Below, one piece after another: positions 57,429 through 63,112 of a stretch of 64,000 bases of DNA. The notes below the pieces were generated by a model. The model was given only the letters and a program-made list of their open reading frames with translations, made no database searches and was not told the DNA's origin. Location of the stretch: NCBI RefSeq assembly GCF_011492945.1, contig NZ_CP045119.1, positions 1,860,001 through 1,924,000 of the forward strand, given 5' to 3'. A program made the translations under genes and the position numbers. Positions within the stretch are counted from its first letter, which is position 1. Each line of letters opens with the position of its first letter. The stretch comes from Rubrobacter tropicus (GTDB lineage Bacteria > Actinomycetota > Rubrobacteria > Rubrobacterales > Rubrobacteraceae).

Positions 57429-60023
57429 CTAGGGCAGGATCTCGACGTACCCGTCCGTTCCATGCACGCGGATCCGCTGCCCATCCCGGATCAGCCGGGT
57501 GGCATGCTCCACCCCCACGACGGCCGGCAAGCCGTACTCCCGTGCGATCACCGCGCCATGGGTCATCAGGCCCCCCACCTCCGTCACCAGGCCCTTGATC
57601 GCGACGAACAGGGGCGTCCAGCTGGGGTCCGTGTAGGCGGTGACCAGGATGTCGCCCGCTTCGAGATCGGCCCCCGCCACGTCCAGGATGACGCGGGCCC
57701 GCCCCTCGATGGTCCCGGCGGAAACCGGCAAGCCGACCAGCGCGCCGGCCGGCAGATCGTCGCGTCGGTACGCCCCGGCGACGGCCTCGCCATCCGACGT
57801 GAGCACCCGGGGCGGCGTGAGCGCCTTATACGAACTGAACGCGTCCTTGCGCTGGCGGATGAGCCGGTCATCCACCTGGTTCGTGCGCACGACGTCCTGG
57901 AGCTCCTGGAAGGTTAGGTGGAAGATGTCTTCCTTCTCACGAAGCACGTGGGCCCGCACGAGGCGCCCGGCTTCTTCCAACAAGGCCTGCTTGTAAACAA
58001 AGTATCGGCTGACCATGCCGTACTTCGGATACTCCCGGTACCCGCTGAAGGTCCGGACCCGGTCGATCATTTGCTTGGCCTCTTCGGCCTTCCGCTTCCC
58101 GTCCGGCAAGGCCCGCAAGCGCTCCAGCAGCTCCCGTTCCTTCTTCCAGGCCTCCTGCCGTCCTTGCTCGAAGCGCCGCGCGCCGGCGCCCGGCTCGAAG
58201 TTCTTGACGTTGCTGAGGATGATGGGCACGAGCGTGGTGGGGCGTTCGCTCCAACGCGGCCTCGTGATGTCGATCTCGCCGACGCAGCGCATGCCGTACT
58301 TGTCGAGCCAGGCCTGAATGGCGTCTCGCGCTTCCCGCCCGCCTGCGAGCCCGGGCAGCTCGTCCAGGAAGCCCTCGTCCTCGACGTGCCGCAGGAAGGC
58401 CACCACGTCCGGACGCGGGCGGATCACGTCCGCGACGTCCAGGAGCGCTAGCCCCATCTCCGACGTGACGTTGTGGGGGACGGACTGCGTAAGCGTGTCG
58501 GCCGCGTTCTTCTCGCCCAGCCACGCCTGCAGCTGCTCATTGAGCCACCAGGTTGCCTCCATTCCCGCCATGATCACCCGATGGCTCTGCGGATCGAACA
58601 GGAGCCGCCTCAGCTCCTGGATGTCCGCCAGGATGAAGTCGAGGAGCGCCGATCCGGACTTCGTCCGGATGTCGCGCTTCAAGTCGGCGAGGGAGGCCTG
58701 GCTGCGCCTGATCAGCTCGGCGACGATGGCCGGATCGGTCTCGATCGGGGCTGGCGCGCCGCCCGCCGGCGCCCCGTCGGGACCCTCGTCCGGGAGCGTC
58801 GGGATGAAGTCGCCGCGGTCGAGGATGGTCTGCAGCGCGTCCCCGATCAGCGGATCGGATTTCCCCAGCATCTCCAGGAAGCCTGCGCGGCTCGCAGGCG
58901 TTGCGAGGCCCCGGGTGACGTCGACGAACAGCCTCCCGCCGGCCTCGTACATGGGCCGGCCTGCCGTCAGCTGCCACAAGGAGATCCCCAGCGGCTTCAT
59001 GGGGTCGGTCATCATCTGCTGATGACCGACGGAGACGTAGACGTGGTTCTCCCGGTCGCCGGCCTCAGGGATAGGGAACAGCGTGGTGATCGGCCGGCTC
59101 TGGACGATCTGGAACCCATCGTCGACCAGGCACCATTCGATGTCCTGGGGGCGGCCGAAGTGGGCTTCGATCCGCCGGCCCAGCTGCGCCAGCCGCACGA
59201 CCTGCGCATCCGTCAGCGCTGCCTGCTCCTGCCGCTCCGGCTCGATCGCATGTTCTTGCGTCCCGCCTGCCGGCGAGGCGTGGATGGCAAGCCGCTTGGT
59301 GGCGACCGCCCTGGCGACGACCTCGCCGTCCCGCACCTTGTAGACGTCCGCGTTTACCAGGCCGGAGACCAGGGCCTCGCCGAGGCCGAAGCTGCCCTCC
59401 ACGGAGGCGACCTTCCGGCTGCCCGTGACGGGGTCGGCCGTGAAGAGGATGCCGGCCGCCTGCGGGAAGACCATCTGCTGCACGACCACGGCCATGTGGA
59501 CCTTCCGGTGGTCCAATCCGTTCCGCAGGCGGTAGGTCACGGCCCGCTCGGTGAAGAGCGAGGCCCAGCACCGGCTGACGTGCTGGAGGATCGCCGCCGG
59601 CCCCACGACGTTCAGGTACGTGTCCTGCTGGCCCGCGAAGGATGCCGTCGGCAAGTCCTCTGCCGTCGCACTGGATCGGACGGCGTAGGCGGCTCTCTCG
59701 CCGAGCCGGGCGAGCGGGCGGGTAATCGCCGCCGCCAGATCGTCGGGGATGGCGGTCCCTTCGAGGGTCCGGCGGATCTCCGCGCTGAGCGCGCGGATCG
59801 CCTCCCGGTCGTCCGGCTTCAGGCGCGACAGCCGATCGAGTCGATCGTCGATCGACGGCGCTTCCGCCATGATCCGCTGGAAGGCGTCCGTCGTCACGCA
59901 GAAGCCAGCCGGCACGCGGAGGCCTTTGATCCGCGAAAGCTCCCCCAGATGCGCGCCCTTGCCGCCAACGACCGCGACCTGCGTCCGGTCGACCTCCTGG
60001 AAACCCAACACGTAGCAGCTCAT
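57429..60023 (-). CDS. rph: Rifampin phosphotransferase (rifamycin-inactivating)
   Basis: ATG at 60023 with GGGAGGGAAGGG directly upstream; 864 residues, normal for the family. 'MSCYVLGFQEVDRTQVAVVG' and 'GKGAHLGELS' start the ATP-grasp-like domain (about 1-310; 'AAYAVRSSATAEDLPTASFAGQQDTYLNV', 'IQVVQSRPITTL'-type end). A long central rifamycin-binding domain follows, then the swivelling phosphohistidine domain (about 775-864) with the catalytic His in 'GGLMTHGAVIAREYGLPAVVGVE'. It phosphorylates the C21 hydroxyl of rifamycins, using ATP and giving AMP and Pi. An RAE-like palindrome lies 520 bases upstream, beyond a chimeric remnant. A PEP synthase is the alternative by fold, but the N-terminus and length are Rph-like. 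Confidence 0.9.
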   Translation of the reverse strand: MSCYVLGFQEVDRTQVAVVGGKGAHLGELSRIKGLRVPAGFCVTTDAFQRIMAEAPSIDDRLDRLSRLKPDDREAIRALSAEIRRTLEGTAIPDDLAAAITRPLARLGERAAYAVRSSATAEDLPTASFAGQQDTYLNVVGPAAILQHVSRCWASLFTERAVTYRLRNGLDHRKVHMAVVVQQMVFPQAAGILFTADPVTGSRKVASVEGSFGLGEALVSGLVNADVYKVRDGEVVARAVATKRLAIHASPAGGTQEHAIEPERQEQAALTDAQVVRLAQLGRRIEAHFGRPQDIEWCLVDDGFQIVQSRPITTLFPIPEAGDRENHVYVSVGHQQMMTDPMKPLGISLWQLTAGRPMYEAGGRLFVDVTRGLATPASRAGFLEMLGKSDPLIGDALQTILDRGDFIPTLPDEGPDGAPAGGAPAPIETDPAIVAELIRRSQASLADLKRDIRTKSGSALLDFILADIQELRRLLFDPQSHRVIMAGMEATWWLNEQLQAWLGEKNAADTLTQSVPHNVTSEMGLALLDVADVIRPRPDVVAFLRHVEDEGFLDELPGLAGGREARDAIQAWLDKYGMRCVGEIDITRPRWSERPTTLVPIILSNVKNFEPGAGARRFEQGRQEAWKKERELLERLRALPDGKRKAEEAKQMIDRVRTFSGYREYPKYGMVSRYFVYKQALLEEAGRLVRAHVLREKEDIFHLTFQELQDVVRTNQVDDRLIRQRKDAFSSYKALTPPRVLTSDGEAVAGAYRRDDLPAGALVGLPVSAGTIEGRARVILDVAGADLEAGDILVTAYTDPSWTPLFVAIKGLVTEVGGLMTHGAVIAREYGLPAVVGVEHATRLIRDGQRIRVHGTDGYVEILP

Positions 60024-60046
60024 CCCTTCCCTCCCTCGTGCGTTCT

Positions 60047-60487
60047 CTAAAGAACGTCGCAACGTCTCACCGGCCCCCACCCGCTCAAGGAATGGATCCC
60101 GAGCGCGTCGCGGCGTAGGTCCCATTCCGGCTCCTCGGCCAGCTCGACCTCGGAGATCAGGTGGCTGGTCGTCGGATCCCACCCGGGGAACTCGATGCCG
60201 GCGGCCTTCCGGATCAGATCGCGTCCGCCGTTGCGCCCGACGAGGTATTCCGCCCGCAGCGACGGGCCGTCGGCCAGCTCCACGTCGACGCCGGCTTCGC
60301 CCCGCGCACCATCGGGCGCACCGGCCGGCCGACCGGTACCAGCGGCGCGCCGACACGGGCCAGCAGCTCCGCGAAGGCCGGAGGCGCGCACACGCGCCTC
60401 CGCGCCGGGTGCCCGCAACCGCACCGCGGGTCCCGCCATCGGTTCGACGTCCCCGCGCGACCCACACGCCGACAACAACACACGCAT
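60047..60487 (-). pseudogene. Chimeric remnant: glycosyltransferase N-terminus fused to Rox-like monooxygenase piece
   Basis: ATG at 60487. 'MRVLLSACGSRGDVEPMAGP' with 'AVRLRAPGAEARVRA' is the start of a GT1/GtfB-like glycosyltransferase. Its continuation 'APPAFAELLARVGAPLVPVGRPVRPMV' is in another frame (one base off). Then, in the first frame, 'VDVELADGPSLRAEYLVGRNGGRDLIRKAAGIEFPGWDPTT' and 'EEPEWDLRRDALGIH' match the middle of a rifampin-monooxygenase (Rox)-type flavoprotein. Neither enzyme is complete. Both parent families include rifamycin-inactivating members. It lies between the RAE-like site and rph. Confidence 0.7.
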
Positions 60488-60543
60488 TTCGTTACTCTAA
60501 TCTCCGTGGGTTCTGGCCTCGGCCGGCATTATGCGCCACGACC

Positions 60544-60562
60544 GGGGCTTGAAGCAAGCCCC
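60544..60562. promoter_or_regulatory. Rifamycin-associated element (RAE)-like palindrome
   Basis: GGGGCTTGAAGCAAGCCCC is a perfect 19-bp inverted repeat (centre A) that matches the RAE pattern known upstream of rph, rox and helR genes in actinobacteria. On the minus strand a TTGCTT (inside the palindrome) and CATAAT (60533-60528) are 18 bases apart, a plausible promoter for the remnant-rph transcript. The start codon of the remnant is about 57 bases away. Confidence 0.75.
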
Positions 60563-61096
60563 GGGGCGCTGTATATTGGAAGTGGAAGGGAGTGGGCAGG
60601 CCTACTCACAGGGTCCGCGACTCCCTCGTGCAGCGCCGCGGACGGTGTCATAGGTTACGCCCTCGACGAGAACCGATGACTGGCGACTGAGCCCGCGCTT
60701 CGCGAATCACGCGGGTCATCCGTCACCATCATGCCGACTCGCCGCGTCCTTCTGGCGATCAGGCTTCGAGTCTCATCGAAAATCGAGCCCGTTGGGGGTA
60801 GGTTTACGGGTTCTTAGGCTTTGAGGTTCCGAGGGGTGGTGGGTCGGGGCCCGCCCGCGGCCTCGTGGCGCACCCCTGAAAACCTGAGTGCCTAAAAACC
60901 TCAAGGCCTCACCAACGATGAGGGTCGGTCCTTCCGCAAACCGCTGTAGCTTGGCCGGGGCAGATCGGCGCGTACAAGGTTTTTACGCACCGACGATTCT
61001 TGCGAGCCTGGGCCGCCGAAATCGGGCTTGAGCCGGATCTCTCGTGGCTCGTGCGGGAGAGGCGCATGGCTGCACAGTCCGAACACGACCTCTAAG
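60563..61096. other. Intergenic stretch with a second repeat type
   Basis: About 530 bases between the RAE-like site and the lctP end. Bases 60818-60910 contain TTCTTAGGCTTTGAGGTTCC and, further on, an imperfect inverted version (CCTGAAAACCTGAGTGCC, AAAAACCTCAAGGCC). No gene supported. Confidence 0.45.
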
Positions 61097-62486
61097 CTAG
61101 GACACCATCCCGATGACCGCCAAGACGACGATGGAAACCACGACGGGGGCCATGGCGAGGCGCGTGATCTCACCCTCCCGCCCCACGAGCCCGGTCGCCG
61201 TCGCCGCCAGCACGATTCGCTGAGGAGCCAACAAACTCGCGTGGCTCCCCGACACGTTCTGCGAGGCCGCCGCGAGTGGCTCCGAGATGCCGAGCCCGCG
61301 CGCGGCCTCGATCTGGAGCGGCATGAAGAGCGCGTTGGAGGCCGCGTTGGATCCCGCGAGCGCCCCCCCGAAAGCACCGAGAACGGGCAGGATGGCGGGG
61401 TAGAGGCTCCCGAAACGCCTGGCTTCGGTCGCCAGCACCCCGGCCGCTCCACCGTCTGCCAAGATCGCCCCGGCGAGCACGAAGGTGAGCACAGCACCCG
61501 CGGTCGGGAGCCACTGGCGGGTCGTGCTGTTCAGCGCGTTGCCGAACGTTCCCGGACCGACCGCGAACAGTGTGGAGGCGAAGATCGAGGAGGCAAGGAG
61601 CGGCAGGCCCGGTCCGTCGATCGCGGGCCCGATCCAGGCCACAGAGCCGGGCCCCCCGCCCGCGTTTATCAGGACGAGTAGGGTAAGGAGAAATGCGTAG
61701 GGCAGCAGCGCGCGCACCGGGGCGCCCCCGGCCCGGCCGATCCGGAGCCCGAGAAAGATTGCCGTCGCCGCGAGCCCACCGACGGCGCCCGAGAGCTCCG
61801 GGACTAGGAAGAGGCTGGTCGCGAGCGTCCCGGCTCCTGCCGCGAGGCCAAGCAGGGCCGCCTCCGCGCCGCGGCGCCTGACACCCGACCATCCGCCGGC
61901 GAGCGCGACCGCGGCGACGCCGTAGACGGGGAAGAGGGGAACGCTCAACAGGGCGCTCCAGTCCGAGAGCTCGACGAAGCCCATCCCGGCGAGATCCGCC
62001 CCGATCACGGTCCCAACCCCCAAAGCCCCCACGGCACCGCGCACTGCCCCAACTCGCCAGCACCGCCGCCTTTAACGGCGAGAAACCGGCGGCGAGCAGT
62101 ATGGGGCGCTTATTACCACCGCCACCCCGAACCCCGTAACCGACTCGAAGAACGGTGCCACCCCGACGACCACCCCCGCGGCGAGCGCGACGGGATCGGG
62201 CTCCAACCGCCCCAGAAATCGCGACACCTCCCCGACCGCCCCGCCAGCCGCGAGCACGTTGTACAGCAACAAACCGCCGAAGAGAACGAACAACACCCGC
62301 CCCGACGTCCCGAGCCCCCCATCAAAGCCCCGAACAGCCCCGACCCCCGAACGCCAACGCCCCGGCCACGGCCGCCCCGAGCGTCGCCACCCCGACCCAT
62401 ACCGCGGGCCGCCCGAGCACCAGAAGCCCGACCCCGGCCACCACGAACGGCGCAAGGGCCGCGAAGAATAGAAAAGCTTCTACCAT
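61097..62486 (-). pseudogene. lctP: L-lactate permease (LctP-family), multiply frameshifted
   Basis: ATG at 62486. Pieces in order: 'MVEAFLFFAALAPFVVAGVG' (first frame); 'GRVLFVLFGGLLLYNVLAAGGAVGEV' and 'VAPFFESVTGFGVAVVISAP' (second); 'ILLAAGFSPLKAAVLASWG' (third); then 'GALGVGTVIGADLAGMGFVELSDWSALL' through 'ALLAPQRIVLAATATGLVGREGEI' to the stop. The combined reading is a normal LctP of about 465 residues. It needs about five single-base additions, mostly in G or C runs (e.g. 62313-62320, 62098-62101, 62027-62040). Lactate/glycolate:proton import is the family role. Decay or assembly error cannot be separated here. Confidence 0.85.
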
Positions 62487-62502
62487 GATAGAATCTCTTC
62501 TA
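62469..62502. promoter_or_regulatory. Tandem palindromic operator TAGAA-N4-TTCTA
   Basis: Two copies of the 14-bp palindrome TAGAA-N4-TTCTA at 62469-62482 and 62489-62502, centres 20 bases apart (two helical turns). The pair covers the lctP start and sits just before the XRE-cupin start, the usual place for an auto-regulated divergent operator. Confidence 0.7.
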
Positions 62503-62506
62503 CCAA

Positions 62507-63112
62507 ATGACGGAGGACAGCGCAACGGTGGACTCTCGGATGGTGGAGGCGGTTTCGTCCGATCGGCTGGGCGGTCGCGTCAGGGAGTTGCGTCGCGGGC
62601 GGGGGTTGACGCTCGAGGAGTTGGCCGGCCGGTCGGGGGTGAGCCGGGCCATGATCTCCAAGCTCGAACGCGGCGAGAAGAACCCGACGCTGGTGGTCGC
62701 CGCGAGGCTTGCCGAGGGGCTGGGTGTTACGCTCTCGCGCCTGGCGGGCACGGAAGAAAAACGCGAAGTCGTCGTGGTGCGGAAAGAGAACCGCCTGGTC
62801 ATGCGCGACCCCGAGACGGGTTTCGAGCGTCAGTTGCTATCCCCGACGTTCGCGGGACGGGGCGTCGAGTTCGTCCGCAACGTGATCCCCACCGGCGGCA
62901 CTTCCGGCGAGTTCCCGCCCCACAGCAGGGGCGTCAGGGAGCACATCGTTGTGGAGAAGGGCGAGCTGTCGGCGACCCTCGGCGGTGAAGAACACCGGCT
63001 GCGGCAAGGCGACGCCCTTTACTTCGAGGCAGACGTCCCGCACCGCTTCGACAACACCGGGCCGGGAGAGTGCAGCTACTACCTCGTCATAGACTACTCG
63101 GGCGCCCCTTGA
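62507..63112 (+). CDS. XRE-family regulator with cupin domain
   Basis: 201 residues from ATG 62507 (no clear ribosome site, possibly near-leaderless; ATG 62540 is an alternative). HTH at about 22-75: 'RVRELRRGRGLTLEELAGRSGVSRAMISKLERGEKNPTLVVAARLAEGLGVTLSRL'. Cupin at about 125-195: 'PTGGTSGEFPPHSRGVREHIVVEKGELSATLGGEEHRLRQGDALYFEADVPHRFDN'. These regulators sense a small metabolite in the cupin and control a nearby transporter or catabolic gene; lactate or a related acid is inferred from the divergent lctP. Confidence 0.88.
   Translation: MTEDSATVDSRMVEAVSSDRLGGRVRELRRGRGLTLEELAGRSGVSRAMISKLERGEKNPTLVVAARLAEGLGVTLSRLAGTEEKREVVVVRKENRLVMRDPETGFERQLLSPTFAGRGVEFVRNVIPTGGTSGEFPPHSRGVREHIVVEKGELSATLGGEEHRLRQGDALYFEADVPHRFDNTGPGECSYYLVIDYSGAP

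Follow-up and report, generated by a model that had tools for sequence, protein, structure and literature searches.

The window, by which we mean the whole 64,000-nucleotide stretch of Rubrobacter tropicus DNA that was analysed, carries an intact rph gene whose product matches the NCBIfam model NF041857 at 1628.6 bits (cut-off 999) over positions 2-864 of 864. Upstream of rph, at a distance of 520 bp and with an open reading frame (60047-60487) between, lies the sequence GGGGCTTGAAGCAAGCCCC (60544-60562), a palindrome that the initial annotation had named a rifamycin-associated element (RAE) in a Rubrobacter-like host. The host was named correctly, and a contig labelled "uncultured Rubrobacteraceae" (L195) carries the RAE site of a genus-mate. 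The locus comprises the following features.

57429-60023, minus strand: rph, rifamycin-inactivating phosphotransferase, 864 amino acids, intact (NF041857; Pfam PPDK_N and PEP-utilizers)
60125-60301, minus strand: putative internal relic of rox (rifamycin monooxygenase), positions ~127-185 (NF033145/NF005303; tblastn, 72-76% identity)
60286-60399, minus strand: putative relic of rgt, codons ~31-70, in another frame (NF000354 positions 31-70; tblastn)
60341-60487, minus strand: putative relic of rgt (rifamycin glycosyltransferase), first ~49 codons (NF000354 positions 1-49; tblastn)
60525-60593, minus strand (gene side): complete RAE promoter module found with the model R1 (cmsearch, 48.6 bits, E 3.2e-14 in the window)
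60528-60533, minus strand: predicted sense -10 box CATAAT, 18-nt spacer (most RAE sites have 19), predicted start at ~60521
60544-60562, no strand: RAE palindrome core GGGGCTTG-AAG-CAAGCCCC, arms reaching 60542-60564
60549-60554, plus strand: predicted antisense -35 box TTGAAG, overlapping the sense -35 box by 3 bp
60552-60557, minus strand: predicted sense -35 box TTGCTT (towards rph), inside the palindrome
60572-60577, plus strand: predicted antisense -10 box TATATT, 17-nt spacer, start expected at ~60584; a mirrored -10 box is present in 81 of 87 RAE sites
60590-60607, plus strand: eroded candidate hairpin of an antisense RNA, GAGTGGG-CAGG-CCTACTC, without a U-run

As a mere palindrome the element is unremarkable; it is the identity of its sequence that matters. 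The perfect 19-bp palindrome reported earlier is indeed present: its halves pair perfectly over 8 bp on either side of a 3-nt centre (AAG, which is not self-complementary), and the arms extend to 10 bp, but eight perfect palindromes with 8-bp arms and a 3-nt centre occur in the window, against about two in shuffled sequences, and four in the window have 10-bp arms. Symmetry alone was therefore rejected as a measure of significance. Matches to the sequence itself within three mismatches, by comparison, are expected 0.05 times in shuffles of the window, and when at most one mismatch is allowed the site is the sole match in the whole 4.58-Mb genome. It is an exact match to GGGGCTTGNNGCAAGSCCC, the 19-bp RAE palindrome. 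In addition, we built a 78-position sequence model of the RAE module (R1) from 56 RAE sites, mostly from other organisms; across the 4.58-Mb genome R1 finds the window site at E 2.3e-12, and with the next match at E 0.02 this is the only convincing one. That the palindrome might be an inverted repeat arisen by chance, or a hairpin of the terminator type, with no tie to rifamycin resistance, as the roughly two such palindromes expected per 64 kb and the eight present could suggest, is refuted, and keeps practically no probability, by the genome-wide R1 score, by the element's one-to-one association with the rph and rox genes of the class and by the conservation of RAE across phyla.

That association emerges from a comparison of 39 Rubrobacteraceae-like genomes of the class. 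The exact sequence GGGGCTTGNNNCAAGCCCC occurs in nine of the 39, whereas the reversed control gave no matches. All seven rph copies that score above the curated cut-off lie behind RAE or its one-mismatch form, as do two partial rph copies and, of the rox genes in the class, the three best. Because R1 matches the site and the same element stands before each full rph, and before the best copies of rox, in the class, the window palindrome appears to be a true RAE. The initial annotation's identification is thus borne out, including by the comparison with an RAE model that it had called for, and it was correct in substance, while its interpretation is partly supported. No report of RAE in Rubrobacteraceae was found in a limited literature search.

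What separates the element from rph in the window? The intervening open reading frame resembles the beginning of the glycosyltransferase Rgt over its residues 1-48 and positions ~127-201 of the monooxygenase Rox over its residues 62-135, and it joins the two relics in one frame. Neither gene is intact: only Rgt 1-49 (with 31-70 in another frame) and Rox 127-201 are left. The remnant is, by its similarities, a chimera of the frameshifted 5' end of rgt and an internal piece of rox, apparently joined by deletion. Its ATG lies 56 bp from RAE, and in intact RAE-rgt loci this spacing is mostly 58-60 bp, so that rph probably sits behind a former rgt promoter. The spacing, together with the rgt-rox relic downstream, argues for a promoter left over from lost enzymes; the initial annotation had proposed such a promoter, placed here as before an intact rgt, although it spoke of one lost enzyme and there would have been two, rgt and rox. 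In Streptomyces-type and Rubrobacteraceae loci, moreover, it is normal for RAE to serve rph; for example, the RAE-rph distance is 54-60 bp in L088, L108, L121, G005 and G004. For this reason the window locus looks like the decay of a RAE-rgt-rox-rph unit rather than the capture of a foreign promoter.

The relatives display several forms of the same arrangement. RAE lies ~58 bp from rph with nothing between in G005 and in two copies in G004; short rgt or rox stubs stand between them in G006 and G010; rgt-rox chimeras do so in G003, G004 and the window; and in G013 and G002 an rgt stub is followed by a retained rox. A complete RAE-rgt-rox-rph unit was not seen among the 39 class genomes. We infer, as the simplest history, that such a unit existed and that rgt and rox were lost through deletions that took place separately in different species. 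A conserved, functional leader peptide encoded by the relic was considered and rejected in favour of neutral decay, since the leaders of the relatives differ in content, length and frame. Two further observations were made at these loci. The genome G004 holds four rph copies or fragments (L027, L028, L029 and L030), each with its own RAE. An inverted repeat, GTTCT-TTAG-AGAAC, is found just 5' of the rph ribosome site (window 60024-60060, minus strand); it is near-identical in G003 and G004a and absent where RAE abuts rph directly.

To describe the element beyond the class, we scanned named genomes with the palindrome only, which gave at least 119 stretches, and aligned 87 nonredundant sites without gaps. 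Among the matches listed, most lie before rox, helR or rph, and of the others whose flanks match, nearly all precede rgt, helR, rox or arr. Three matches without module flanks (L006, L008 and L009) were judged by eye to be chance. Orienting the sites by gene or by flank score gives the same answer in 78 of 79. Over the 87 sites, conservation around the palindrome spans positions -33 to about +50 and amounts to 33 bits on the left and 21 on the right, compared with ~2-3 in far flanks of equal length; the conservation of the flanks is not an effect of selection by the scan, because they lay outside its pattern, whereas that of the palindrome arms is overstated, because the arms were part of it. 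The palindrome would accordingly be only the core of a module of ~75 bp, as judged from this alignment. The module precedes arr in Stenotrophomonas (S. maltophilia L119, L122 and L184) and rph or rox in Chloroflexota bins, and because it is also found in these groups a phylum-specific regulator is not obviously needed. The common RAE centre is CCG/CGG, and that of the window is AAG/CTT. The CTT/AAG centre was also seen, with different flanks, in two Bradyrhizobium sites before rox (L154 and L187) and in L172, a locus that looks like rox.

The conserved flanks resemble promoters on both sides of the palindrome. On the gene side (right), CANAAT beginning 11 nt past the palindrome is conserved in the 87 sites; on the other side (left), on the opposite strand, TANN(T)T likewise begins 11 nt past the palindrome. 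The pattern [TC]ANNNT occurs at offset 11 in 76 of 87 sites in the sense direction and in 81 of 87 in the antisense direction, and at no other offset from 0 to 44 does it occur more than 15 times. In a second set of sites, obtained by scanning 396 genomes of the phylum with R1 and partly biased, since R1 includes the flanks, the offset-11 -10 box is present in 34 of 38 sense and 35 of 38 antisense flanks. With a -10 box at 11 nt on both sides, TTGCNGCAA would thus comprise two overlapping -35 boxes, TTGCNG on each strand with a 3-bp overlap and 19-nt spacers, belonging to back-to-back promoters. The antisense spacer is 19 bp in 81 of the 87 sites and 17 bp in the window. Compared with the sense -10 box, the antisense box is closer to TATAAT in 26 sites, equally close in 54 and further from it in seven. 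From these patterns we consider it very probable that the antisense promoter at RAE sites is real.

The predicted sense promoter is compatible with what has been mapped. In mycobacterial arr loci the predicted start falls at position ~41-42, 5-6 nt past CANAAT, which fits the reported transcription of M. smegmatis arr from 31 nt before its GTG (PMC7882622), the mycobacterial loci compared being possibly not those of M. smegmatis. According to a review (PMC10719064), the mapped M. smegmatis helD start lies ~20 bp upstream of RAE, in the sense direction. Among 56 nonredundant sites we found no conserved motif that would correspond to that upstream start; nor did a conserved TTG-TANNNT pair, such as a second sense promoter 5' of the module would have, appear beyond the hairpin described below. 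An antisense AAGGAG was inspected by eye as the ribosome site of a small open reading frame and set aside, as no conserved start codon was seen.

Often, the predicted antisense transcript would end almost where it begins. Its predicted start, 7 nt past the antisense -10 box, is at -23, where 97% of the sites have G, and stems with a score of at least 7 begin at exactly this position in 41 of 86 sites, the number declining on both sides. A start-proximal hairpin is found in 43 of 87 real sequences and in none of 87 shuffled ones. The hairpins are followed by T-rich sequence (on average 5.8 of 12 nt are T, where 1.9 would be expected), and T-richness on the antisense side is 5.3 against 2.6 in 10 nt. 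Within a set of sites picked for possessing a stem, the paired positions covary: C-G, A-T and G-C at +3; A-T and G-C at +4, +5 and +8; and G-C, A-T, C-G and T-A at +9. Hairpin and U-run are intact in about half of the RAE sites. For example, in two S. maltophilia arr loci (L122 and L184) the hairpin is strong, formed by GGAGGCGC..GCGCCTCC, and TTTTTT comes directly after it. In Rubrobacteraceae, the window included, both parts are mostly eroded. The window site itself is an ordinary member of the RAE kind; what may be new about this kind here is the two-promoter architecture. We found no description of the mirrored antisense promoter and terminator of RAE in the papers that we read.

At the window locus, the sense promoter boxes are as the initial annotation gave them, on the minus strand (TTGCTT at 60557-60552, 18 nt, CATAAT at 60533-60528), with RAE upstream of rph and overlapping the sense -35 box. 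The antisense promoter, which it had missed, looks equal to the sense one or better: TTGAAG-17-TATATT (60549-60577, plus strand) is the only consensus promoter within 60000-60750. The two spacers, 18 and 17 nt, are 1-2 nt shorter than the 19 nt of the relatives because bases of the G/C run beside the palindrome are missing on each flank, a loss that is either genuine or due to a sequencing error. That the palindrome and both -10 boxes have stayed intact next to a decayed leader speaks for continued selection on the promoter, presumably for the sake of rph. The survival of rph behind the promoter of what is apparently a decayed rgt-rox-rph unit supports the evolutionary reading of the initial annotation. 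Might the site instead be a fossil RAE that is no longer rifampicin-inducible, with rph transcribed from elsewhere or silent? The dead rgt-rox chimera in the leader, the eroded antisense terminator and the loss of at least one base of the G/C run from each flank, with spacers of 18 and 17 instead of 19, would all be expected of a fossil. Nevertheless, rph is intact (1628 bits), palindrome and -10 boxes have outlasted the leader, and RAE and rph have no further consensus promoter between them, so that we regard a fossil as improbable. On the antisense side of RAE we also observed a dispersed repeat with an internal inverted repeat (window 60780-60930; 24 matches in its own genome at 66-100% identity). 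The window further contains an L-lactate permease-like gene (61097-62525, minus strand; PF02652) split by an apparent frameshift, either a pseudogene or a sequencing error.

How might such an element sense rifampicin? We propose, with moderate confidence and from sequence patterns, that RAE is a pair of sigma-A-type promoters that compete for polymerase, and that rifampicin shifts the balance to the sense side and hence to rph. That both promoters are active and compete, and that the drug shifts the balance, we infer. As the -35 boxes overlap in the palindrome, only one polymerase at a time would occupy a module. The sense promoter would lead to rph through a leader of ~500 nt containing the dead rgt-rox remnant, and the antisense promoter, which at most RAE sites is no further from consensus than the sense one, would yield an RNA of ~30 nt that ends at once where the terminator is intact. 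Without rifampicin, polymerase would mostly be engaged in this unproductive antisense cycle and rph would be nearly silent. Drugged polymerase, possibly aided by a factor specific for the G/C arms, would upset the balance so that the sense promoter fires, Rph is made and the drug is inactivated. A difficulty of this proposal is its sign, in that an antisense polymerase arrested by rifampicin should block the sense promoter rather than free it; either arrested complexes may quit the antisense promoter quickly, or a factor recognising the G/C arms may be involved. In the window, the eroded antisense terminator and the spacers that are 1-2 nt short also speak against it, and so do the M. smegmatis helD start mapped upstream of RAE and the loss of induction seen in B. 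subtilis when two such promoters are brought too near each other (PMC12802891).

The main alternative is that the palindrome is an operator for a dimeric transcription factor which, responding to rifampicin or to blocked polymerase, represses or activates at the sense -35 box, the antisense -10 box being secondary. A factor bound to the palindrome is the view taken in PMC12802891 and PMC10719064; the former paper, of January 2026, calls the RAE mechanism and the presumed regulator unknown. The symmetry of the palindrome is perfect, and its outer arms, GGGGC/GCCCC, are conserved beyond the -35 letters; a -35 box has no need of these arms, and their conservation points to a bound factor. Deletion of a half-RAE abolishes helD induction, as PMC10719064 relates, but this deletion removes the sense -35 box as well. 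An operator leaves unexplained both the mirrored -10 box at the equal 11-nt offset and the terminator hairpin at the predicted antisense +1, and, as the unit of RAE and genes also occurs in Pseudomonadota and Chloroflexota, a conserved cognate factor would be needed there too. We therefore hold an operator to be rather unlikely, and favour the promoter pair.

Three known systems come closest. Like actinobacterial RAE before rgt, rox, rph, helR and arr (PMC10719064, PMC12802891), the window site has a 19-bp palindrome, overlap with the sense -35 box and a rifamycin-inactivating gene downstream; in contrast to the usual case, rph is 520 bp away, beyond a dead rgt-rox chimera, and the centre of the palindrome is AAG/CTT. 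In B. subtilis, a sense/antisense promoter pair at helD/pps senses rifampicin; these promoters are convergent, with starts 39 bp apart, and moving them too close together abolishes induction (PMC12802891). In both RAE and helD/pps, a gene for rifampicin resistance (among them pps, a homologue of rph) is preceded by a sense and an antisense promoter, and the 19-bp antisense spacer of B. subtilis recurs at most RAE sites, though not in the window with its 17 bp. However, the RAE promoters are divergent rather than convergent and share part of their -35 boxes, so that polymerases would be mutually exclusive and the B. subtilis collision model is not transferable unchanged; its simple carry-over was rejected on the grounds of this divergent geometry and of the sign problem. 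Similarly, the M. smegmatis rpoBC promoters show an interference between two promoters that is relieved by rifampicin, as is proposed for RAE, but they are tandem, fire in the same direction without a palindrome and give an effect of about two-fold (Zhu et al. 2018, as cited in PMC10719064).

Finally, these observations bear on how rifamycin resistance is controlled more broadly. The R1 model detects RAE-controlled genes without the exact palindrome, and it shows the RAE switch outside Actinobacteria, including before Stenotrophomonas arr. A mirrored antisense promoter with an immediate terminator, common to rgt, rox, rph, helR and arr, makes RAE sensing testable by point mutations in one -10 box. 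Tentatively, and at somewhat below even odds in our estimation, RAE could be a regulator-free or regulator-light rifampicin sensor, made of two exclusive promoters and an antisense terminator, that travels with resistance genes across Actinomycetota, Chloroflexota and Pseudomonadota. If this is true, RNA polymerase, the target of the drug, would report its own inhibition.
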